From Rhodopseudomonas palustris (GTDB lineage Bacteria; Pseudomonadota; Alphaproteobacteria; Rhizobiales; Xanthobacteraceae), in NCBI RefSeq assembly GCF_034479375.1, contig NZ_CP140155.1:682001-746000 (forward strand): a stretch of 64,000 bases of DNA, given 5' to 3'. Below, piece by piece: positions 53,326 through 63,905 of this stretch. Below the pieces are notes generated by a model. That model saw nothing but the letters and a program-made list of their open reading frames with translations, did no database searches and was not told where the DNA came from. The position numbers were made by a program, and so were the translations under genes. The stretch's first letter is position 1, and each line of letters opens with the position of its first letter.

Positions 53326-53558
53326 ATCGTCCACTTGATGTCGACGGCGGGTCGACAGCGGAGAACCTCATGATGATTCAGACGTAGTTCGAAGTCGTCG
53401 CAGCGCAGATCGCCGCTATCGCCTGACCGATCGCTGATAGCGCATCGCGGGCATTCGCCGTGCGTTGGCCGTCACCAGAACGGCGGTTCGCGCGACGCAC
53501 GCCGGTGCGTCGATGCGATGCCGCCGAGCGATGGAGAGGGCCTTGCCATGGAGTGGAC

Positions 53559-53885
53559 ATGGAACCCAAAGACACGACGACGAACGAGGCCTTCAAGGGC
53601 TTCACCAACGAGGCCTGCCCGTTCCTGCCGTGCCATCAGGGCGTCGCGCGGGAGTTCAACTGCCTGTTCTGCTACTGCCCGCTGATCGCCTATGAGTGCC
53701 CCGGGCCCTATCAGGTGTTCACCGATCGCAACGGCCTGAAGCGCAAGGACTGCAGCGCCTGCACGCTGCCTCACAACGGCTATCGCCGCTCGTGGAATTT
53801 CATCCAGCGGTGGCTCGAGAAGCCGAAGCTGTGGGATGGCGGCGATCAGGATCCGAAGCGGATCAAGGAGGCGTCGCAAGAATGA
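53559..53885 (+). CDS. cysteine-rich small domain protein (cobalamin-associated)
   Basis: A 108-residue protein with eight cysteines in CPFLPC...CLFCYCP...ECPGPY...DCSACTLPHNGY, the pattern of the cysteine-rich small domain found in cobalamin-synthesis loci, probably binding zinc or an iron-sulfur cluster. ATG 53559 has GGAG 5 nt upstream; the frame is open to 53460 but without homology. A cobalamin riboswitch about 230 bp upstream supports a B12-related role. Biochemical function is unknown. Confidence 0.85.
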   Translation: MEPKDTTTNEAFKGFTNEACPFLPCHQGVAREFNCLFCYCPLIAYECPGPYQVFTDRNGLKRKDCSACTLPHNGYRRSWNFIQRWLEKPKLWDGGDQDPKRIKEASQE

Positions 53886-53919: not shown

Positions 53920-54813
53920 TCAGGGATGCTGCCGGGGCACGGAGGCGTCCTCGTCCTGGTGAATCCGCGCGATCGAATCGGCGAGTTGGTCGAGTGCATC
54001 GGGCAGCATCGGCCCGCCGCACATCGTCAGTTGATCCGGGAAGACGAGACGGCGATTCGGCGGGTAGGCGCGCTGGATCGCCGGGTGGAGCAGCAGCGCC
54101 TTGCCTTGATCTTCCGCGAAAGGCTTGTCGTCTGCGACGAGCAGCAGATCCGGCCGCGACGCGACGATCGTTTCGAGCGACGCGAAACCGCCATAGGTCA
54201 GGCCGATCTCCGCCGCCGCATTGGAGAGGCCGGCGACCTCCAGCAGCGAGCTCAGCAAGCCGTCGCTGCCCGCGATCCAGCCGCGTCGCGACACCGGAAG
54301 AATGCGGTCGCGCCAACGCGACGCCATCGCTCGGGTGCGCGCGACGGATCGATCGATCCGCGCGATGATCGCGTCGGCCCGTTCGGGGTGGCCTGCGAGA
54401 TCGCCGACACGCCGGATCTGCGCCTTCACGTCGTCGATGTTGCGCGGGACGTCGAATTCTTCGATCGCGATTCCATTGCTGCGCAACAGCTCGCGCGTCG
54501 CCGCCTTGCCGTAGCGCCCGGCGAGAACGATGTCGGGCGCCAGCAGCAACAGGTCTTCGGCTTCGCCCGACAGCCGTGGAAAACTGCGCGCTTGCTTCGC
54601 CGACCAGGACAGATGTGGGTCGCGGGCATAGGGGCCGAGGCCGACGATCTGCACCGGATCGGCCAATGCGATCAGAAGCTGATCGGTGCACATGTTGATC
54701 GAGGCGATCCGGGCGCTGGCTGCGATCGCCGGGCCGGGCAGCGCAGTGCCGGCGGCCAAGACGAGCGCGCCGAACAGCAGCACGCGCTTCAGATGCCTGA
54801 TCGGGGAATTCAT
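53920..54813 (-). CDS. BtuF-like periplasmic binding protein (vitamin B12 or metal-chelate type)
   Basis: A 297-residue secreted class III binding protein. A signal peptide ends near PAIAA (about 32), then ARIASINMCTDQLLIALADPVQIVGLG matches the BtuF/FhuD fold. Lobes are joined by a long helix around residues 140-165. The position next to riboswitch-controlled cobalamin genes suggests B12 or cobinamide as ligand, but no riboswitch precedes this gene and no permease is adjacent. It is convergent with the Cys-rich gene. Confidence 0.8.
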   Translation of the reverse strand: MNSPIRHLKRVLLFGALVLAAGTALPGPAIAASARIASINMCTDQLLIALADPVQIVGLGPYARDPHLSWSAKQARSFPRLSGEAEDLLLLAPDIVLAGRYGKAATRELLRSNGIAIEEFDVPRNIDDVKAQIRRVGDLAGHPERADAIIARIDRSVARTRAMASRWRDRILPVSRRGWIAGSDGLLSSLLEVAGLSNAAAEIGLTYGGFASLETIVASRPDLLLVADDKPFAEDQGKALLLHPAIQRAYPPNRRLVFPDQLTMCGGPMLPDALDQLADSIARIHQDEDASVPRQHP

Positions 54814-55272: not shown

Positions 55273-55833
55273 TTGCGCCGCCCAACCGTTTCGAAATCAG
55301 AACTGATGCCGGGAGGGGACGATCGGATCTTCCGGACCTTCATTCATGATTTCCTCGCGTTCAGCGCGCGGGTGGACCAATGCCGCGCCGGGTTCGGCGA
55401 TCGGCTTGGTATCTCCGGGATCGCCTACACGACCCTGATTTCGGTGGCGCATCTGCAGGGCGAAGAGGGAGTCGGAGTGAGTCGCGTGGCCGAACATCTG
55501 CATCTCTCCGGCGCCTTCGTCACGATCGAGGTATCGAAACTCGTCAAGGCCGGTCTGCTCCACAAGCGGGCCAATCAGGAAGATCGTCGGCGCGTCCTTC
55601 TCACCGTGACGCCGAAGGCCCGGAAGCTGCTCGACCAGTTGGTCGAGATGCAGGCGCCGGTGAACGACGCGCTGTTCGACTGCCTGAGCGCGTCGGAATT
55701 CCGGCAATTGTCCTCGATGATGGCGCGACTGGTGCCGTGCGGCGACAAGGCGGTGACGCTGATGAGCTTCCTGACCGCGCCCTCGGCTCCGGCTGTGCCG
55801 GAAGTGCCGCGCAAGGTCGCCCGCCGGCGCTGA
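55273..55833 (+). CDS. MarR-family transcriptional regulator
   Basis: A 186-residue regulator with a winged helix-turn-helix in the middle (VSRVAEHLHLSGAFVTIEVSKLVKAGLLHKRANQEDRRRVLLTVTPKA), matching MarR including the DRR wing motif. The start is uncertain: TTG 55273 has GGGAG upstream and is used here; ATG 55306 is the alternative. It lies 182 bp upstream of the monooxygenase-transporter operon on the same strand, with two perfect palindromes between, so it probably represses that operon until a phenolic ligand appears. Confidence 0.82.
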   Translation: MRRPTVSKSELMPGGDDRIFRTFIHDFLAFSARVDQCRAGFGDRLGISGIAYTTLISVAHLQGEEGVGVSRVAEHLHLSGAFVTIEVSKLVKAGLLHKRANQEDRRRVLLTVTPKARKLLDQLVEMQAPVNDALFDCLSASEFRQLSSMMARLVPCGDKAVTLMSFLTAPSAPAVPEVPRKVARRR

Positions 55834-55938
55834 CGCCGCCGCAGTTCTTCCCATCCCCGACATGACGGCCGGCTGCCGCGCGCGGCGGCCGATGCGCCAT
55901 TGCCCGTTTTGATGCCGCGCTGCCGCATCTTTTTTGGG

Positions 55939-55955
55939 CGAATGCATCGCATTCG
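55939..55955. promoter_or_regulatory. palindrome 1 upstream of the monooxygenase operon (candidate operator)
   Basis: CGAATGCATCGCATTCG: 7-bp perfect arms with a 3-bp spacer, the size of MarR-family sites. It lies 61 bp before the first gene, just upstream of a TTGACT hexamer (55959-55964). Confidence 0.55.
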
Positions 55956-55976
55956 CGCTTGACTGGCTTTGGAAGA

Positions 55977-55995
55977 TAGCTTTGGATCAAAGCTA
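55977..55995. promoter_or_regulatory. palindrome 2 upstream of the monooxygenase operon (candidate operator)
   Basis: TAGCTTTGGATCAAAGCTA: 8-bp perfect arms with a 3-bp spacer, placed where a -10 element would be and 20 bp before the flavin reductase ATG. Binding here should block transcription. Confidence 0.6.
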
Positions 55996-56015
55996 GTTGA
56001 GGTCGCGGGTCATCG

Positions 56016-56537
56016 ATGAGTCTGGATCAGAGAAGCTTTCGTTCGGCGTTGTCGCAGTTCGCGACGGGCGTGGCGGTCATCACCGCCCGCGGCGAAGCGA
56101 ACGCCTTAATCGGGATGACGATGAGTTCGTTCAACTCGGTCTCGCTCGATCCGCCGCTGATTCTGTTCAGCGTCGACCGCCGCGCGCTGAGCCTGGCGGC
56201 GATGCAGGCCGCCGACGGCTACGCGGTCAACATCCTGAGCCGCGGGCAGGAGGCGCTGTCCAATCAGTTCGCCAAGGCGTCCAGCGACAAATGGAGCAAC
56301 GTCTCGCATTCGATAGGACACGCCGAGGCGCCGCTGCTGGCGGGGGCGCTCGCGCACTTCGAATGCGCGCCCTATGCGCAATACGACGGCGGGGATCACG
56401 TCATCTTCGTCGGCCGGGTGGTGCGCTTCGGCGTTCGCGAAGACGAGGAGCCGTTGGTGTTCTTCCGCGGCAAATATCAGTGCCTCGGTCGGCAGGGAGG
56501 CAGCGAGCCGATGTGGCCGCTGCCGATTCACTACTGA
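56016..56537 (+). CDS. flavin reductase component (HpaC-like)
   Basis: A 173-residue NAD(P)H:flavin oxidoreductase of the HpaC/StyB type: N-terminal RSALSQFATGVAVITARG, FNSVSLDPPLILFSVDR for flavin binding and GGDHVIFVGRVV with the GDH motif for NAD(P)H. It supplies reduced FAD to the two-component monooxygenase encoded 34 bp downstream. It is the first gene of the operon. Confidence 0.92.
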   Translation: MSLDQRSFRSALSQFATGVAVITARGEANALIGMTMSSFNSVSLDPPLILFSVDRRALSLAAMQAADGYAVNILSRGQEALSNQFAKASSDKWSNVSHSIGHAEAPLLAGALAHFECAPYAQYDGGDHVIFVGRVVRFGVREDEEPLVFFRGKYQCLGRQGGSEPMWPLPIHY

Positions 56538-56571
56538 TCGACGACGGGCAAAGCAAAGGAAACGACGGACG

Positions 56572-58044
56572 ATGAAGACAGGAAATCAGCATATCGCAGG
56601 GCTCCGCGACGGGCGCGCCGTGTTCATCGACGGTCGCAAGGTGGATGACACCACGCGGCATCCGGCGTTCCAGCGGTCGATCCGCTCGGTCGCAAAGCTG
56701 TTCGATTTCGCGACGGACGAAGGCAACCGCGATCTGATGACCTTCGCGACGCCGACCGGCGAGCGGGCGAACCGGATCTGGCAGTTGCCGGAGAGCTTCG
56801 AGGAACTGCGGGACCGGCGCCGCGCGTTGGAGGCCTGGGGCGGCTTGCATGCCGGCTTCCTCGGACGGGCTCCCGATCACGTCGCTTCCTGCATCGCCGG
56901 GATGTACATGGGGCTCGATCAGTTCGAGGCCTACGACGAGGCGCGCGCCAAGGCGCTGGCGGACTACTACGCCTACGCCCGCGACCGGGACCTCTATCTG
57001 ACCTACGTCATCATCAATCCGCAGGCGGACCGGTCGAAGAGCGCCAGCCAGCAGAAGGACGCTTTCCTGACCACGGGCGTGGTCGATCAGGACGCGGAAG
57101 GCATCACGGTGCGCGGCGCCAAGATGCTGGCCACCGGCGGCATCATGGCCGACGAGGTGTTCGTCACCTGCATTCAGCCGCTGCAGCCGGGCGACGAAGC
57201 CTACGCGCTGTCCTTCGCGATTCCGATGAACACCAAGGGCCTGTCGATCCTCTCGCGCAAATCCTACGAAGCGTCGTCGCCGTCAGTGTTCGACAATCCG
57301 CTGTCCAGCCGGTTCGACGAGAACGACGCCGTGCTGCACTTCGAAGACGTCAAGGTGCCGTGGGATCGCATCTTCGTCTTCAAGAACATCGAGATGTGCC
57401 AGAAGCAGTTCCATGCGACTCCGGCGCACGTCTATCAGAACTATCAGGCGATGGTGCGGCTGTCGGTCAAGGTTCGCTTTCTGATCGGCCTGGCGCGCCG
57501 GACCGCCGAAATCAACGGCGTGCTCGGCTTCCCGCAGGTTCGCGAAACGTTGGGGCAGCTCGCCGCGGAAGGCGGCATGATCGACGCGTTCGTCGCCGCG
57601 ATGGAGGCAAAGGGCGTTCACTACGGGCGCTACTTCGTGCCGGACCGGCACACGTTGTACGCCGCGCAGACGCTCACCCAGCAGCTCTATCCGAAGATCC
57701 TGAATACGCTGCGCGATCTCGCCGGCGGCGGCATGATCATGTTGCCGTCGTCGATCCAGGACCTCGCCAATCCGGAGATCGCCGCGCTGGTGGAGCGCAC
57801 CCAGCAATCGCCGGCCGCGAGTGCGATCGACAAGGTCAAGTTCTACAAGCTCGCCTGGGACGCCGTCGGTTCCGAATTCGCGTCGCGTCACCAGCAATAC
57901 GAGATGTTCTACGCCGGCGCGACCTTCGTGACCAAGGGACATTCGTTCCGCTGCTACGACTGGGACGGCGCGGGATCGCTCGTCGACGGAATGCTGTCCG
58001 GCTACCAGCTCGCCGACGAGCTCCAGACCTCTCAAGCCGCCTGA
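56572..58044 (+). CDS. FADH2-dependent monooxygenase, HpaB/4-BUDH family
   Basis: A 490-residue protein of the 4-hydroxyphenylacetate 3-monooxygenase oxygenase type with the acyl-CoA dehydrogenase-like fold. Conserved parts include YLTYVIINPQADRSKSA, GVVDQDAEGITVRGAKMLATGG, VPWDRIFVFKN and a C-terminal GAGSLVDGMLSGYQ. The pairing with an HpaC-like reductase makes a two-component hydroxylase. The downstream genes are not the hpa meta-cleavage genes, so the aromatic or heteroaromatic substrate is probably different from 4-hydroxyphenylacetate. Starts at ATG 56572. Confidence 0.9.
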   Translation: MKTGNQHIAGLRDGRAVFIDGRKVDDTTRHPAFQRSIRSVAKLFDFATDEGNRDLMTFATPTGERANRIWQLPESFEELRDRRRALEAWGGLHAGFLGRAPDHVASCIAGMYMGLDQFEAYDEARAKALADYYAYARDRDLYLTYVIINPQADRSKSASQQKDAFLTTGVVDQDAEGITVRGAKMLATGGIMADEVFVTCIQPLQPGDEAYALSFAIPMNTKGLSILSRKSYEASSPSVFDNPLSSRFDENDAVLHFEDVKVPWDRIFVFKNIEMCQKQFHATPAHVYQNYQAMVRLSVKVRFLIGLARRTAEINGVLGFPQVRETLGQLAAEGGMIDAFVAAMEAKGVHYGRYFVPDRHTLYAAQTLTQQLYPKILNTLRDLAGGGMIMLPSSIQDLANPEIAALVERTQQSPAASAIDKVKFYKLAWDAVGSEFASRHQQYEMFYAGATFVTKGHSFRCYDWDGAGSLVDGMLSGYQLADELQTSQAA

Positions 58045-58059
58045 TCCAGGGAGAACAAC

Positions 58060-58440
58060 ATGGCTGTCAACAAGATCCACGACGAATTCCGGGCGGTCGA
58101 CATGACGACCGGGTGGGAAGTGCCGGCGGGCTATCCCAAGGGCATTCAGCAGAAGATTCTGTCCGGCGGCCTCGACGAAGAGAACCGCCGCGGCTCGCGC
58201 AGCCGGCTCCTTCGCTTCGAGCCCGGCGAGTTCACCACCAAGCCGTTCGTCCACGAGTATTGGGAAGAAGTGTTTCTGGTTTCCGGCGACCTGACGGTCG
58301 GCAATGACGAGAACGGAAACGGCGGCGAGAGCTTCAAGCCGTTCACCTATGCCTGCCGTCCGCCGGGGGCGTTCCACGGACCGTTCAAGTCGGAGCAGGG
58401 CTGCGTGCTGTTCGAACTCCATTACTTCGATCCGGTTTGA
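58060..58440 (+). CDS. cupin-domain protein
   Basis: A 126-residue single-cupin protein with LLRFEPGEFTTKPFVHEYWEEVFLVSGDLTVG (metal-ligand motif 1 with one His and two Glu) and CRPPGAFHGPFKSEQGCVLFEL (motif 2). It could be a dioxygenase, isomerase or sensor of the ring-oxidised product. It lies 15 bp after the monooxygenase gene, so it is in the same operon. Function is not known. Confidence 0.85.
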   Translation: MAVNKIHDEFRAVDMTTGWEVPAGYPKGIQQKILSGGLDEENRRGSRSRLLRFEPGEFTTKPFVHEYWEEVFLVSGDLTVGNDENGNGGESFKPFTYACRPPGAFHGPFKSEQGCVLFELHYFDPV

Positions 58441-58579
58441 TGCCCGCCGCGATGCCGACAGTCATCACGACCATTCGCCTTGCGGACGGGCGCGCTGCCG
58501 TTCGCTCCTCCGCGGAATCTCGCCGCCACTTGGCGCTCGGCGGAGAGCTGCGGCGCGTCGTCCGCCGGAGGCGTGTGGC

Positions 58580-59452
58580 ATGATCGCCCAGCAGCTCATC
58601 AACGGCGTGATGCTCGGCTCGATCTACGTGCTGGTGGGCGTGTCGTTCACGCTGGCGATCGGTATCCTCAACTTCCTCAATTTCTCCATTCCCGGCCTGT
58701 TCATGGTGGGGGGAATGGTGACCTGGGTGATGCTCACCGGCGGGTGGCACTGGGCGTTCGCGATCGGCGCCGCGCTCGCGGCGGCGGCGCTGGTCTCGCT
58801 GGCGGTCGAGCAATTGTCTTATCGCCGGACCCGGGGCGCCGACCCGGAAGTGCCGCTGGTGTCGTCGCTCGGTTTCCTCGTGCTGCTCGAGAATCTGGCG
58901 CTGCTCGGCGTCGGCTCGGACCAGCAGGCGTTTCCGTCGTTGCTGGGTGATTTCAATTTCCGCATCGGCGGCCTCGTCATCGGCGCCGCGCAAGCCATCA
59001 GCCTGGTCGTGACGTTCCTGCTCGTGATCGGCCTGTCAATCGTGCTGGGCCGGACCAATCTCGGGCGGCAGATCAGGGCGATCGCCGAGAGCCGAAGCAC
59101 CGCCGTCCTTCTCGGCGTCGACGTCGGGCGGCTGGTGCCGAAGATCTTCGTGCTGACCGCCATGTTCACCGCGCTCGGCGGCGTGATGTTCGCGCTCAGC
59201 TATCTCCAGGTCTCGCCGTTCATGGGGGAGGGCGTCGGCTTCAAGGGCGTCGCCGCGATGATCATCGGCGGCATGGGAAGCGTCTGGGGCGCGGTGATCG
59301 GCGGCCTGATCATCGGCGTGATCGAAGTCGGATCGATCTGGGCGTTCGGCGCCGACACCGTCAACATCGCGGTGTACGGCTCTCTGCTCGCCCTTCTGAT
59401 CTTGCGGCCCCACGGTCTGTTCGGCCGGCCGGCGATCCGGGAGAAGCTCTGA
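58580..59452 (+). CDS. livH: branched-chain-type ABC transporter permease LivH-like
   Basis: A 290-residue inner-membrane permease with about eight helices. The N-terminus LINGVMLGSIYVLVGVSFTLAIGILNFLNFS and the loop ALGGVMFALSYLQVSPFMGEGVGFKGVAAMIIGGMGSVWGAVIGG are LivH signatures. The start at ATG 58580 is 139 bp after the cupin gene; no separate promoter was seen in the gap. It belongs to a full LIV-type transporter, here probably for an aromatic acid. Confidence 0.92.
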   Translation: MIAQQLINGVMLGSIYVLVGVSFTLAIGILNFLNFSIPGLFMVGGMVTWVMLTGGWHWAFAIGAALAAAALVSLAVEQLSYRRTRGADPEVPLVSSLGFLVLLENLALLGVGSDQQAFPSLLGDFNFRIGGLVIGAAQAISLVVTFLLVIGLSIVLGRTNLGRQIRAIAESRSTAVLLGVDVGRLVPKIFVLTAMFTALGGVMFALSYLQVSPFMGEGVGFKGVAAMIIGGMGSVWGAVIGGLIIGVIEVGSIWAFGADTVNIAVYGSLLALLILRPHGLFGRPAIREKL

Positions 59453-59453
59453 G

Positions 59454-60314
59454 ATGAGCGGCTACCAGACCGGCGTTCTGATCATCCTCTGCTTCAACAT
59501 CATGGCGGCCTATGCGGTGTATCTGCCGCTGGTCGCCGGGCAGCTCAATCTCGGCATCGCCGGCTTCATGGCGATCGGTGCCTATACGGCGGCGTATCTC
59601 ACCACCGAGACGGGCTGGCCGCTGGCAGCCGCGCTTCCGATGGGCGGCGCTGCGGCGGGCGCGATCGCGCTGGTCGTGGCCATTCCGATCCTGCGCACCC
59701 ACGGTATCTATCTGGCGCTCGCCACCTTTGCGCTCGGCCAGGTGATTTCGGCCGTGTTCCTGAATCTCGAAGTCGTCGGTGCCGCGGCCGGCTATCAGGT
59801 CCCGCTCTACGCGCCGCCGATCGCGGTCTATGCGATGACGGCCGCCGTGGTGTTGTTCGTGGTCGCGCTGTCGCAGACCCGCTTCACGCTCTATCTGACC
59901 GCGATCAAGAACGATCGCCTGGTCGCCGATCTGCTGGGGCTGAGGGTTCGCGCCCTGCAGGTCGCCGCCTTCACGATCGGCGCGGTGATCGCCGGCATCG
60001 GCGGTGGTCTCTACGCCCATCACTTCAGCTTCATCGAGGCGCAGCATTTCAGCGTCAGCCTGAGCATCTACACCGTGTTGTACGTGTTGCTGGGCGGCAC
60101 GCAGACGGTCTGGGGTCCGCTGGTCGGGGCGATCTTCTTCAGTCTGGCCCCGGAACTGCTGCGAGCCGGAGAATCCTGGCGCTACGTTCTGTTCGCGGCC
60201 CTGATCGTCGCCTTCATGGCGGTTCGTCCGCAGGGGCTCGTCACCCCGACGGGAATCCGCGCTCTGTTCCGCGCCGTCGGACGGCGTGCTGCGACGTCGC
60301 GGGTGCGGTCATGA
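59454..60314 (+). CDS. livM: branched-chain-type ABC transporter permease LivM-like
   Basis: A 286-residue second permease. YAVYLPLVAGQLNLGIAGFMAIGAYTAAYLTT near the N-terminus and FTIGAVIAGIGGGLYAHHFSFIEAQHFSVSLSIYTVLYVLLGGTQTVWGPLVGA are LivM hallmarks. It begins one base after the livH stop and overlaps livG by 4 bp (ATGA). Confidence 0.92.
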   Translation: MSGYQTGVLIILCFNIMAAYAVYLPLVAGQLNLGIAGFMAIGAYTAAYLTTETGWPLAAALPMGGAAAGAIALVVAIPILRTHGIYLALATFALGQVISAVFLNLEVVGAAAGYQVPLYAPPIAVYAMTAAVVLFVVALSQTRFTLYLTAIKNDRLVADLLGLRVRALQVAAFTIGAVIAGIGGGLYAHHFSFIEAQHFSVSLSIYTVLYVLLGGTQTVWGPLVGAIFFSLAPELLRAGESWRYVLFAALIVAFMAVRPQGLVTPTGIRALFRAVGRRAATSRVRS

Positions 60315-61081
60315 GCGCGGCCGCCCCGCTTCTCGCGCTCGACGGCGTCGGCAAGTCGTTCGGCGGCGTTCGTGTCATTCGCGATCTCGGCTTCGCCGTC
60401 GCGCGCGGCCAGACCGTCGGACTGATCGGGCCCAACGGCGCCGGCAAGACCACCGCCTTCAACATCGTCAGCGGCGTGTTCCGTCCCGATGCCGGCAAAG
60501 TCACCTTCGACGGGCGTGATATCACGTCCGTTCCATCACGCCGCCGGATCGCGCTGGGAATCGCGCGCAGCTTCCAGAACGTCCGGTTGATGCAGCATCT
60601 CACGGTCTGGGAAAACCTGCTGGTCGGGCAGCACGTCCGCACTTCCGGACTGGTCGATCTGCTGACGCCGTTTCGGCCGTTTCGCAATCACCGCTGGCGG
60701 CAGGAGGCGGTCGCTGCGCTCGCCGAGATGGGGCTGGACGGCTATGCGGACGCGATGGTCGGCGAACTTCCCTACGGCATTCGCAAGCGGATCGATCTGG
60801 TGCGGGCGACGCTCGCCGGGGCCTCGCTGCTGATGCTCGACGAGCCGGCCGCGGGCCTCAATCCCGTCGAGACGCAGGGCCTGACCTCGCATCTCGAACT
60901 GCTCAAGGCGCGCGGCGTGACGCTGCTGATCGTCGAGCACGACATGCACTTCGTCGACAAGATCTGCGACCACGTCGTCGTGCTCAATTTCGGCGAGAAG
61001 ATCGCGGAGGGGCCGCTTTCGCTGGTTCAGCGCGATGCGGTGGTCCGCGCGGCCTATCTCGGATCGGAGGCGGCGGCATGA
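60311..61081 (+). CDS. livG: branched-chain-type ABC transporter ATPase LivG-like
   Basis: A 256-residue ATPase: Walker A GPNGAGKTT, RSFQNVRLMQHLTVWENLLVGQH, a degenerate signature (LPYGIRKRIDLVRA) as usual for LivG, Walker B LLMLDEPAAGLNP and switch VEHDMHFV. It overlaps both livM and livF by 4 bp, indicating coupled translation. Confidence 0.92.
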   Translation: MSAAAPLLALDGVGKSFGGVRVIRDLGFAVARGQTVGLIGPNGAGKTTAFNIVSGVFRPDAGKVTFDGRDITSVPSRRRIALGIARSFQNVRLMQHLTVWENLLVGQHVRTSGLVDLLTPFRPFRNHRWRQEAVAALAEMGLDGYADAMVGELPYGIRKRIDLVRATLAGASLLMLDEPAAGLNPVETQGLTSHLELLKARGVTLLIVEHDMHFVDKICDHVVVLNFGEKIAEGPLSLVQRDAVVRAAYLGSEAAA

Positions 61082-61839
61082 CGGCCATCCTCTCGGTTTC
61101 GGATTTGACCGTGGCCTACGGCGGGGTGACCGCCATCGACGGCGTATCGCTGTCCGTCGACGACGGCGAGATCGTCACGGTGCTCGGAGCGAACGGCGCC
61201 GGCAAGACCACGCTGTTGCTGGCGATCATGGGCGCCGTCCCGGCGAGCCGGGGACGGATCGCATTGCGGGGAACGGATGTGTCGCGCTCCCGCGCGCACC
61301 ACCGCCTGGCGCAGGGACTGGTGCTCGTTCCCGAGGGCCGGCAGGTTCTGGTGTCGCTGACCGTCGAAGAAAATCTCCTGCTCGGCGCGCATCTGCGCCG
61401 CGACCGGCAGGCGGTCCGCAACGAGATCGCCGCGATCTATGAACGCTTTCCGAATTTGGGCCAGCGCCGGCACACGGCCGCCGCCACGCTGTCGGGCGGC
61501 GAGCAGCAGATGGTGGCGATCGGCCGGGCGATGGTCGCGCGGCCGCAGGTGCTGATGCTCGACGAACCCTCCCTCGGGCTGTCGCCGCTGTTCGTCTCGA
61601 AGGTGTTCGATCTGATCGAGGAGATGAATCGCAGCGGCCTGACGATCGTGCTGGTCGAGCAGAACACCGGCAAGGCGCTGTCGGTTGCGCACAGTGCGAC
61701 CGTGCTCGAACTCGGCAAGGTCGCGATCGCCGGCCCGTCGGAGGCGCTGCGGAACGATCACAGGTTGCTGGAAGCCTATCTCGGCGGAGCCGCGGACATT
61801 GCGGACGAGCCTTCGTCGATGCGAGCGAACTCTCAATGA
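61078..61839 (+). CDS. livF: branched-chain-type ABC transporter ATPase LivF-like
   Basis: A 253-residue ATPase: Walker A GANGAGKTT, LVPEGRQVLVSLTVEENLLLGA, signature LSGGEQQMVAIGRAM, Walker B LLMLDEPSLGLSP-type (LMLDEPSLGLSPLF) and VEQNTGKAL. Partner of LivG in the same transporter. The binding-protein gene follows after 19 bp. Confidence 0.92.
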   Translation: MTAILSVSDLTVAYGGVTAIDGVSLSVDDGEIVTVLGANGAGKTTLLLAIMGAVPASRGRIALRGTDVSRSRAHHRLAQGLVLVPEGRQVLVSLTVEENLLLGAHLRRDRQAVRNEIAAIYERFPNLGQRRHTAAATLSGGEQQMVAIGRAMVARPQVLMLDEPSLGLSPLFVSKVFDLIEEMNRSGLTIVLVEQNTGKALSVAHSATVLELGKVAIAGPSEALRNDHRLLEAYLGGAADIADEPSSMRANSQ

Positions 61840-61858
61840 AGCAAAAGGAGCAGGGGTG

Positions 61859-63037
61859 ATGAAAGCAAACGGCGTCTTGGCGGCGGGTGTCGCACTGGGA
61901 CTGACATTGGTTTCGACGGGAGCGACACGAGCGGCGGATCTCATCCTCGGCTTTTCAATGGCGAAGACGGGACCCTATGTCAGTCTCGCGAACACCAACG
62001 AGGTCGCCGTCGATCTCGCGGTCGACGAGATCAACGCCAAGGGGGGCATCGGCGGCCGCAAGCTCAAGCTGGTGAAGTTCGACACCGGCGGCGATCCGAA
62101 GCAGGCGGCGCTCGCGGTGCGCCAGTTCGCCGAGGACAACAAGGCGCTGGCGGTGATCGGACCGTTCAGCTCCGGCGAAGTGCGTGTGGCGTTCCCGGCC
62201 GGCGAGCGTCTCGGCATCGTGCAGATGTCGATGTCGTCGTCGGCGCCCGGGCTGACGAAAGGCTTCAGCTACGCCTTCCGCAACACCCGTGACGAAAAGA
62301 CGGTGATCGACGAGGTGCTGGCGGCGCTGCGCGACAAGAAGCTGCCGATGGGCACGGCCGCCACGGCCTTCGCGACCGACGACACGGTGTCCAAAGCGAT
62401 CGGCACGGCGGTGCTGCCCGTCTTGTTGAAGAAATACGGCATCGACAACAAGGGGGCGGTGGACTTCCAGTACAATGCGTTCGATCTGTCGCCGCAGGTT
62501 TCGCAACTGGCACAGATGAAGCCGGACATCATCGGTCTTGGCGCTCCGCCGGAAGCGGCGATCAACCTCGCCAAGGAGCTGAAGCGCCAGGGCGTCAGCG
62601 CGCGACTGATCGGCGGCACCACGGTCGCCGATCCGGATCTGCCGCGCCGGATGGCGGGAGCCGGAAATTCGATGACCATCGGCACCACGTTCTTCGCCGA
62701 TCTCAACGACCGGACCAGATCCTTCGCCAAGCAGTTCGCGGCCAAGACCTCGGCCGCAGGGATGACCCGGCACGAGCCGAACCAGCAGGATGCATCCGCG
62801 TACGACATCGTCTATCTGTTCGCAGAAGCCATCAAGGTTGCGGCGGTCACCGGCGAGCCGGACAAGGTGGCCGCGGATCGGACCGCGATCCGGGACGCGC
62901 TGGCGAAGCTGAAGGGCTTTCCCGCTCTCGAGGGCGAGATCTCGTTCGGCGATGACCACGACTCCATCAAGCCGATCTACGTGATCGAAGCGCGCGACGC
63001 GCAGTGGAGCCTGCTCGACACCCGCAAGGGCGAATAG
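61859..63037 (+). CDS. periplasmic binding protein of the LIV-type transporter (LivK/Peripla_BP_6)
   Basis: A 392-residue secreted protein. The signal peptide ends at ATRAAD (about 26); mature residues ILGFSMAKTGPYVSLANTNEVAVDLAVDEINAKGGIGGRKLKLVKFDTGGDPKQA fit the family. Binding-pocket residues differ from true Leu-binding proteins, and the operon context points to an aromatic or phenolic acid as ligand. AAAAGGAG precedes ATG 61859. Confidence 0.9.
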   Translation: MKANGVLAAGVALGLTLVSTGATRAADLILGFSMAKTGPYVSLANTNEVAVDLAVDEINAKGGIGGRKLKLVKFDTGGDPKQAALAVRQFAEDNKALAVIGPFSSGEVRVAFPAGERLGIVQMSMSSSAPGLTKGFSYAFRNTRDEKTVIDEVLAALRDKKLPMGTAATAFATDDTVSKAIGTAVLPVLLKKYGIDNKGAVDFQYNAFDLSPQVSQLAQMKPDIIGLGAPPEAAINLAKELKRQGVSARLIGGTTVADPDLPRRMAGAGNSMTIGTTFFADLNDRTRSFAKQFAAKTSAAGMTRHEPNQQDASAYDIVYLFAEAIKVAAVTGEPDKVAADRTAIRDALAKLKGFPALEGEISFGDDHDSIKPIYVIEARDAQWSLLDTRKGE

Positions 63038-63132
63038 CCCGCAGCGTTCGGCAGCGCCCGCGGAGGCAGCCGAGCCCCCGCGGGTCGCCGAATCCGGTCG
63101 GCGTCGTTCCGTCATTCGTCACGAGAGAAACC

Positions 63133-63825
63133 ATGCATTCCGTGCCAATCGACTTCGTCATTCACGATCAGGACCGACAGGTCACGCGATCCCTGCAGTT
63201 CGATGCGTTGATCATCGCGGGCTGGACCGGCCGCGATCCGGTGGCTCGCGACAAGCACATTGCCGAACTCGCGGAGCTCGGAATCGCGCCGCCCGCCTCG
63301 ACGCCGATCTACTACCGTGTGGCGGCGAGCCGGCTGACGACGAGGCCGGCGATCGAAGTCAGCGACGAGCATTCGAGCGGCGAGGTCGAATTCGTGCTGA
63401 TGCGCTTCGATGGACGGATGTATGTCGGCGTCGGCTCCGATCACACCGATCGCAAGGTCGAGACCTACAACATCACCGTCTCGAAGCAGATGTGCGACAA
63501 GCCGATCGCCCCCGAATTGTGGTGCTTCGACGACGTCGCGAACCACTGGGACCAGCTCGTGCTGCGCTCCTACGCGACGATCGCCGACAAGCGGGTGCTC
63601 TATCAGGAGGGCACGCTCGCGGGCATGCTGCCGCCCGCCGATCTGATCGTCCGCGGCTTCGGCGGTTCCGGGCTTCCGGAGCGAGCCGCGATCTTCGGCG
63701 GAACCTTCGCGGCGAAAGGCGGCATCAGGCCGGCTTCGCGCTTCGACTACGAACTCTTCGATCCCGTTCTGGGCCGTCGCATCGCGCACGGCTACGATGT
63801 CGAGACGCTGCCGGTGCTCGGCTGA
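63133..63825 (+). CDS. DUF2848 family protein
   Basis: A 230-residue protein of the DUF2848 type, distantly related to the fumarylacetoacetate hydrolase fold. Features are IAGWTGRDPVARDKHIAELAELGIAPP, PIYYRVAASRLTT, the conserved GSDHTDRKVE and a C-terminal FDPVLGRRIAHGYDV segment. Such proteins are found beside aromatic-acid transport and degradation genes, and hydrolysis of a ring-fission or dioxo product is plausible but unproven. It is the last gene of the operon, before a terminator. Confidence 0.8.
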   Translation: MHSVPIDFVIHDQDRQVTRSLQFDALIIAGWTGRDPVARDKHIAELAELGIAPPASTPIYYRVAASRLTTRPAIEVSDEHSSGEVEFVLMRFDGRMYVGVGSDHTDRKVETYNITVSKQMCDKPIAPELWCFDDVANHWDQLVLRSYATIADKRVLYQEGTLAGMLPPADLIVRGFGGSGLPERAAIFGGTFAAKGGIRPASRFDYELFDPVLGRRIAHGYDVETLPVLG

Positions 63826-63878
63826 TCGGCGAGCGTCGTCGCGGTTCGAGTTGATAGCAATTCTCCGACAGGCTGAAG

Positions 63879-63905
63879 CGCCCGGTGCTCGTCACCGGGC
63901 GTTTT
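63879..63905 (+). terminator. rho-independent terminator of the monooxygenase-transporter operon
   Basis: A 9-bp stem (CGCCCGGTG/CACCGGGCG) with CTCGT loop and TTTT, 54 bp after the DUF2848 stop. The remaining 95 bp of the window show no gene. Confidence 0.9.

Follow-up and report, generated by a model that had tools for sequence, protein, structure and literature searches.

Among the known systems closest to the one studied here is HpaBC, the two-component 4-hydroxyphenylacetate 3-hydroxylase, a group D flavin monooxygenase. In the HpaB of Thermus, Arg100, Tyr104 and His142 hold the phenol hydroxyl of the substrate and are termed highly conserved (PMC10537072). Here we analyse a 64,000-nucleotide stretch of Rhodopseudomonas palustris (GCF_034479375.1, contig NZ_CP140155.1; henceforth the window, G000:C1:682001-746000 of a complete 5.31-Mb genome), whose + strand carries a ten-gene operon in the order marR-hpaC-hpaB-cupin-livH-livM-livG-livF-livK-DUF2848 (Pfam search of the window proteins). 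An initial annotation had proposed a phenolic or heteroaromatic acid as its substrate, and comparison with other genomes favours the second option, with nitrogen in the ring. We propose that the operon is probably repressed by MarR and serves the catabolism of a small N-heteroaromatic carboxylic acid, which would be hydroxylated and then opened by a C-N hydrolase. The phenolic option is disfavoured because this HpaB clade has other residues where HpaB binds the phenol and because hpaB elsewhere is usually accompanied by genes for C-N hydrolases.

The oxygenase and its exchanged phenol site

An oxygenase with HpaB_N and HpaB domains adjoins a separate flavin reductase gene (56016-58044), as in group D two-component flavin monooxygenases. 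The earlier description of an uptake-and-hydroxylation operon with a two-component FADH2-type monooxygenase is supported. The HpaB family model has a single match in the host genome. Among named HpaB proteins, one from a Bradyrhizobium liaoningense record comes nearest (91%), followed by those of Rhodopseudomonas (89-90%), and the nearest solved structures are 4-hydroxyphenylacetate hydroxylases (1.7e-80). The protein nevertheless falls below both NCBIfam HpaB cut-offs, with 348.9 against 480.2 bits for HpaB-1 (TIGR02309) and 289.6 against 885.2 bits for HpaB-2 (TIGR02310). Alignment to 2yyg places its Arg99, His103 and Tyr145 at the positions of Thermus Arg100, Tyr104 and His142, so that the Arg-Tyr-His phenol site is not reproduced.

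His103 and Tyr145 are invariant in all 105 aligned sequences (95 from the near clade, eight at about 48-63% identity and two more distant, with the window HpaB present twice, as itself and as L093; loci of the comparison are numbered L001 onwards). Seven remoter homologues comprise three with the His/Tyr exchange, two with Arg-Tyr-His and two with neither. This distribution indicates that the exchange marks a clade, and it may bear on substrate choice. The canonical Arg-Tyr-His relatives L131 and L134 gave no clean contrast set, since the seven neighbours scanned include neither ring-cleavage nor C-N hydrolase genes and encode regulators, disulphide reductases and a binding protein.

On the strength of the cut-offs and the active-site exchange we reject a classic hpa operon; by these tests the HpaB is not a 4-hydroxyphenylacetate hydroxylase. 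Pfam found no known ring-cleavage family among the ten operon genes, the classic hpa ones included, just as the initial annotation had remarked, though the cupin may have such a role. The operon could instead be an hpa-like one for a phenolic acid, with ring cleavage encoded elsewhere in the genome, as family membership, the conserved Arg99 and the nearest structures would allow; we regard this as improbable in view of the missed cut-offs, the exchange at Tyr104/His142 throughout the clade and the C-N hydrolases that usually accompany hpaB.

Partner genes across genomes and the amidase in trans

The comparison covered the best 80 of 180 loci found on genome contigs, eight plasmid loci and 20 stretches from members of the order. 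Neighbours were counted within 10 kb of hpaB in 77 loci of at least 15 kb with HpaB at least 64% identical, and only at 40% identity or more to one reference, which makes absences less certain than presences. L043, L100 and L108, in which the gene caller showed no HpaB, are missing from these counts and from the HpaB alignment; L014 and L096 are the same contig and close strains were counted apart, so locus counts are not independent events. DUF2848 was identified across genera through cluster c5, which includes the window protein.

Six related loci, L001-L005 and L008, have all ten genes in identical order, and parts of the set recur in many other genera; the arrangement is therefore more than chance. 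Around HpaB we counted the cupin in 71 loci, HpaC in 64, MarR in 61 and DUF2848 in 52, along with an amidase-signature amidase in 39, HyuA/HyuB with an aldehyde dehydrogenase in six, UbiD in five and RidA in two, and 47 of the 77 loci have a C-N or imine hydrolase near hpaB. Annotated plasmids of Roseateles, Caballeronia and Thioclava have flavin reductase, HpaB, cupin (DUF4437 in Roseateles) and amidase in this order, with DUF2848, the LIV transporter and MarR nearby. On an Arthrobacter plasmid whose HpaB is 42% identical, CN-hydrolase, DUF2848, HpaB, cupin and HpaC form one row, from which we conclude that the core is old. Six loci from metagenome-assembled genomes, several marine by name (L062, L068-L072), combine HpaB with HyuA/HyuB, an NMT1-type binding protein and a succinate-semialdehyde-dehydrogenase-like enzyme, and may be a variant with an ATP-dependent lactamase. 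In L009, L015 and L057 a fumarate-reductase/aspartate-oxidase-like flavoprotein directly follows HpaB or the cupin, in the usual place of the amidase.

Across 207 aligned cupin sequences, H65, E69, E70, H106 and E119 are each conserved at 97% or more, and all five recur in the Arthrobacter copy; the cupin is likely a metal enzyme and may act as an isomerase or in ring opening. An amino-aromatic acid such as anthranilate, released from an amide by the amidase, could be converted to 3-hydroxyanthranilate and cleaved by the cupin; H65, E69, E70 and H106 would suit this, one relative (P0102) is named as an anthranilate 3-monooxygenase component, and 2-aminobenzoate 3-monooxygenase belongs to the same flavoenzyme group D. 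We give this little credence, since the ChrR-type cupin has only weak matches to solved cupins and none to a named ring-cleaving family in Pfam and NCBIfam searches, the operon has no aminomuconate-type genes, and HyuAB would be left unexplained.

The one UbiD tested is nearest to the solved enzymes HmfF (furandicarboxylate) and AnInD (indole-3-carboxylate) and brings five-membered heteroaromatic acids into the picture; the UbiD specificity residue discussed in PMC7976604 could not be assigned safely here. Scanned loci of the sister HpaB clade carry other C-N hydrolases. In a sister clade with HpaB 54-56% identical, L087, L109 and L111 are Rhizobium-type operons with an amidase, PuuE-like deacetylases, an 8-oxoguanine-deaminase-like enzyme and an EutA/AMDase-type protein (families scanned in L111 only), and may represent another N-ring route. 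A narrower version of our proposal, sharing in its probability, would have a six-membered, pyridine-type acid hydroxylated and opened to a maleamate-like amide, followed by amidase action and isomerisation to fumarate. It draws on these Rhizobium-type relatives, with their 8-oxoguanine-deaminase-like amidohydrolase, and on a 37% relative (L132), behind which come a gene of the isochorismatase family and a weak match of AMDase type. Such genes were not seen beside HpaB of the window's clade, and the enzymes nearest to the UbiD act on five-membered or fused five-membered rings, so we consider a pyridine-type substrate unlikely.

The initial annotation took the pathway to be self-contained, an idea that we reject as unsupported in view of an amidase in trans. 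The amidase that lies beside the operon in many other genera has its best match here at G000:C1:397278-398624, about 340 kb away and directly followed by a second DUF2848 gene (398674-399303). This amidase is 46-65% identical to 21 HpaB-near amidases of other genomes (20 without one duplicate contig), 40-44% to Bradyrhizobium/Afipia-type operon amidases, and at most 34% to three other amidases of its own genome that were compared. It is present in all 16 genus members. The operon HpaB occurs in only seven of these (87-100% identity), which makes the operon an accessory trait. In the nine HpaB-less genomes the sole DUF2848 adjoins the amidase and in five operon-bearing ones it sits inside the operon; the window's genome has DUF2848 at both places, and none was found in operon-bearing G013, an assembly of many contigs. 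The two proteins thus seem to work as a pair, of which DUF2848 is encoded either beside the amidase or in the operon.

A confident structure model predicts an FAH fold for the DUF2848 protein, in agreement with the initial annotation. E84, E86 and D103 are invariant in 45 DUF2848 sequences, and in a profile alignment with five FAH sequences, one of them a weak member, D103 pairs with the FAH Asp while the two E-x-E motifs lie four columns apart. Neither DUF2848 locus is among the six PF01557 matches of the genome, and a search of open-licence literature found DUF2848 named in no paper.

The palindrome and the layout of the operon

A perfect palindrome, TAGCTTTGGATCAAAGCTA, lies within the 182-bp gap between marR and hpaC. 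When up to two mismatches are allowed, its pattern, TAGCTTT-N5-AAAGCTA, has 94 sites in the 2.06 Mb of locus sequence, whereas one single mononucleotide shuffle gave none and the reversed sequence one. Most of the 94 sites are positioned ahead of hpaC or marR; others precede transporter genes (L010, L020, L057 and L098) or, with two mismatches, lie between UbiD and DUF2848 (L016) and ahead of an amidohydrolase set (L079). At up to one mismatch the window site is the only one in the 5.3-Mb genome, where the backwards control pattern likewise occurs in one place. All seven operon-bearing genus members have the palindrome upstream of hpaC (four exact, three with one mismatch). With no mismatch allowed, the site is found in none of the nine HpaB-less members and the control in one of 16; with one mismatch, the site is found in one of three HpaB-less members tested and the control at four places in three of eight genomes. 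Single one-mismatch sites without positional information therefore mean little.

Across 297 genomes of the order, the exact site occurs in 11 of 40 with HpaB (E <= 1e-100) versus two of 257 others, and the control in eight of 297. Those 11 sites adjoin MarR, HpaC or Liv genes; the other two lack these in the stretch examined. At an HpaB cut of 650 bits, picked after the data were seen, the proportions are 11/24 and 2/273 (Fisher 5e-12). A conserved palindrome thus stands beside a regulator gene, as in a MarR-operator pair, and MarR would bind it. An operon of such patchy occurrence might also serve detoxification or signal quenching instead of growth, and MarR regulators often respond to toxic aromatics; a dedicated importer, with its own palindrome-bearing promoter region in four loci, fits nutrition better, and we hold the detoxification alternative to be highly improbable.

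Further palindromes accompany the site. A second perfect one, GCGAATGCATCGCATTCGC, occupies window positions 55938-55956, ending 20 bp before the main one, and is not listed for other loci. Upstream of hpaC in the Rhodopseudomonas loci L001-L005, the main palindrome is overlapped by a second copy, which has two mismatches and begins 13 bp ahead of it, as if for a second MarR dimer; this copy is absent in the window. The sister-clade loci L112-L114, which encode HpaB, HyuA/HyuB and an AstE/DoeB-like deacylase, carry the TAGCTTT palindrome with one or two mismatches ahead of hpaB, and the operator is therefore older than the window's HpaB clade.

Pfam placed MarR, Flavin_Reduct, HpaB_N with HpaB, Cupin_7, two BPD_transp_2, two ABC_tran, Peripla_BP_6 and DUF2848 where the initial annotation had put them, although the genes number ten and not eight. 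The tight spacing it described holds for six gaps of -4 to 34 bp and fails for three, the marR-hpaC gap and those between cupin and livH (139 bp) and between livK and DUF2848 (95 bp). For marR, ATG 55306 (175 aa) is a likelier start than the in-frame upstream TTG 55273, because the relatives in L001-L006 have 174-175 aa. The terminator is as clear as had been claimed, with none of 200 shuffles as stable; a generic terminator scan did not report this hairpin and gave a weaker stem slightly downstream. A generic scan of the window found no sigma-70-type promoter.

Features of the operon in window coordinates
Feature	Position	Strand	Evidence and remarks
marR, MarR-family regulator, likely repressor of the operon	55306..55833	+	Pfam MarR_2 1.7e-06; ATG 55306
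Candidate MarR operator TAGCTTTGGATCAAAGCTA	55977..55995		Conserved palindrome; ends 20 bp ahead of the hpaC start codon
hpaC-like flavin reductase, 173 aa, 18.7 kDa	56016..56537	+	Pfam Flavin_Reduct 9.1e-43
hpaB-like FADH2-dependent monooxygenase, 490 aa, 54.4 kDa	56572..58044	+	Pfam HpaB_N 5.8e-90, HpaB 9.6e-57; R99/H103/Y145 signature
Cupin_7 (ChrR-like) cupin, 126 aa	58060..58440	+	Pfam 7.5e-07; conserved H65, E69, E70, H106, E119
livH-type permease	58580..59452	+	Pfam BPD_transp_2 1.9e-34
livM-type permease	59454..60314	+	Pfam BPD_transp_2 5.3e-28
livG-type ATPase	60311..61081	+	Pfam ABC_tran 1.6e-27
livF-type ATPase	61078..61839	+	Pfam ABC_tran 2.1e-29
livK-type periplasmic solute-binding protein, 392 aa	61859..63037	+	Pfam Peripla_BP_6 8.8e-51
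DUF2848 protein, 230 aa, predicted FAH fold	63133..63825	+	Invariant E84, E86, D103, candidate metal ligands
Rho-independent terminator	63875..63905	+	13-bp stem, -22.6 kcal/mol, z -3.8

Upstream of the operon, a frame at 53920-54813 (- strand) has, by eye, the look of a vitamin B12- or siderophore-type periplasmic binding protein, and a short Cys-rich protein frame (53460-53885, + strand) lies beside it.

A candidate route and its known counterparts

Pyrrole-2-carboxylate is broken down through 5-hydroxypyrrole-2-carboxylate to 2-oxoglutarate and ammonia. It is our leading single candidate substrate, a possible but doubtful one whose share falls within the probability given to N-heteroaromatic acids as a class. 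In the proposed route, the LivK-HMGF transporter would import the acid, and the acid or an intermediate would release MarR from the palindrome. HpaC would supply FADH2 for the HpaB-like enzyme, which by its class is a hydroxylase and would act on the ring; hydroxylation next to the ring nitrogen would yield a lactam tautomer, an isomerisation that the cupin may catalyse. A C-N hydrolase would then open the lactam, here perhaps the distant amidase, akin as it is to the operon amidases, and in other genomes an amidase, HyuAB or a nitrilase, with RidA removing the enamine nitrogen. The FAH-fold DUF2848 enzyme would process the resulting 2-oxo acid, a product to be expected from a ring whose carboxylate neighbours the nitrogen.

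Several observations weigh against this proposal. No result fixes the substrate, the evidence being comparative, and the exchanged HpaB residues alone do not exclude a phenol. Thirty of the 77 loci, Rhodopseudomonas L002-L005 included, have no C-N or imine hydrolase within 10 kb; UbiD occurs in few loci only, and AnInD is inactive on pyrrole-2-carboxylate according to PMC8988006. In the sister clade (seven loci, 50-64%) no cupin and no DUF2848 were found within 10 kb. All nine Rhodopseudomonas-group genomes without this HpaB carry the amidase-DUF2848 pair, which must therefore also serve something else, and the genome-wide pattern search, at up to one mismatch, found no palindrome at the pair. 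No sequence of a characterised pyrrole-2-carboxylate monooxygenase was found in literature listings.

More tentatively, we suggest a widespread, undescribed aerobic route for N-heteroaromatic alpha-carboxylates, with an Arg-His-Tyr HpaB sub-class, a MarR/TAGCTTT-N5-AAAGCTA regulon across many genera, and amidase, HyuAB and nitrilase replacing one another in opening the lactam; DUF2848 would be a new enzyme of FAH fold that acts on 2-oxo acids. If true, DUF2848 would gain a function, genes could be named for one class of nitrogen-ring turnover in soils and the sea, and many proteins named 4-hydroxyphenylacetate hydroxylases in public records would have another role. Through its conserved palindrome the regulon is open to direct tests.

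No characterised pathway matching the operon was found: the titles and abstracts in literature listings do not describe the gene set, though a deeper or subscription-journal description is possible, and listings on pyrrole-2-carboxylate catabolic genes, HmfF with pyrrole dicarboxylates and trichloropyridinol genes gave no description of it. Compared with individual known systems, the transporter shares the full five-gene set of branched-chain amino acid (LIV) ABC transporters, yet its proteins score far below the NCBIfam Liv cut-offs, which leaves room for a ligand other than a branched-chain amino acid. The nearest solved chain to the LivK-type protein is 4gnr (1.8e-20), and its relatives name no ligand. 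DUF2848 is 18% identical to fumarylpyruvate hydrolase of the FAH superfamily and forms a separate Pfam family, its E84, E86 and D103 being candidate metal ligands only. The monooxygenase resembles HpaBC in both components, in their families and in Arg99 (Thermus Arg100), and differs from it in scoring below the curated cut-offs, in having His103 and Tyr145 for Tyr104 and His142, and in an operon without ring-cleavage genes. Pyrrole-2-carboxylate monooxygenase (EC 1.14.13.130), assigned to flavoenzyme group D in PMC6165268, shares this class with the HpaB-like enzyme of the window and may be its kin.

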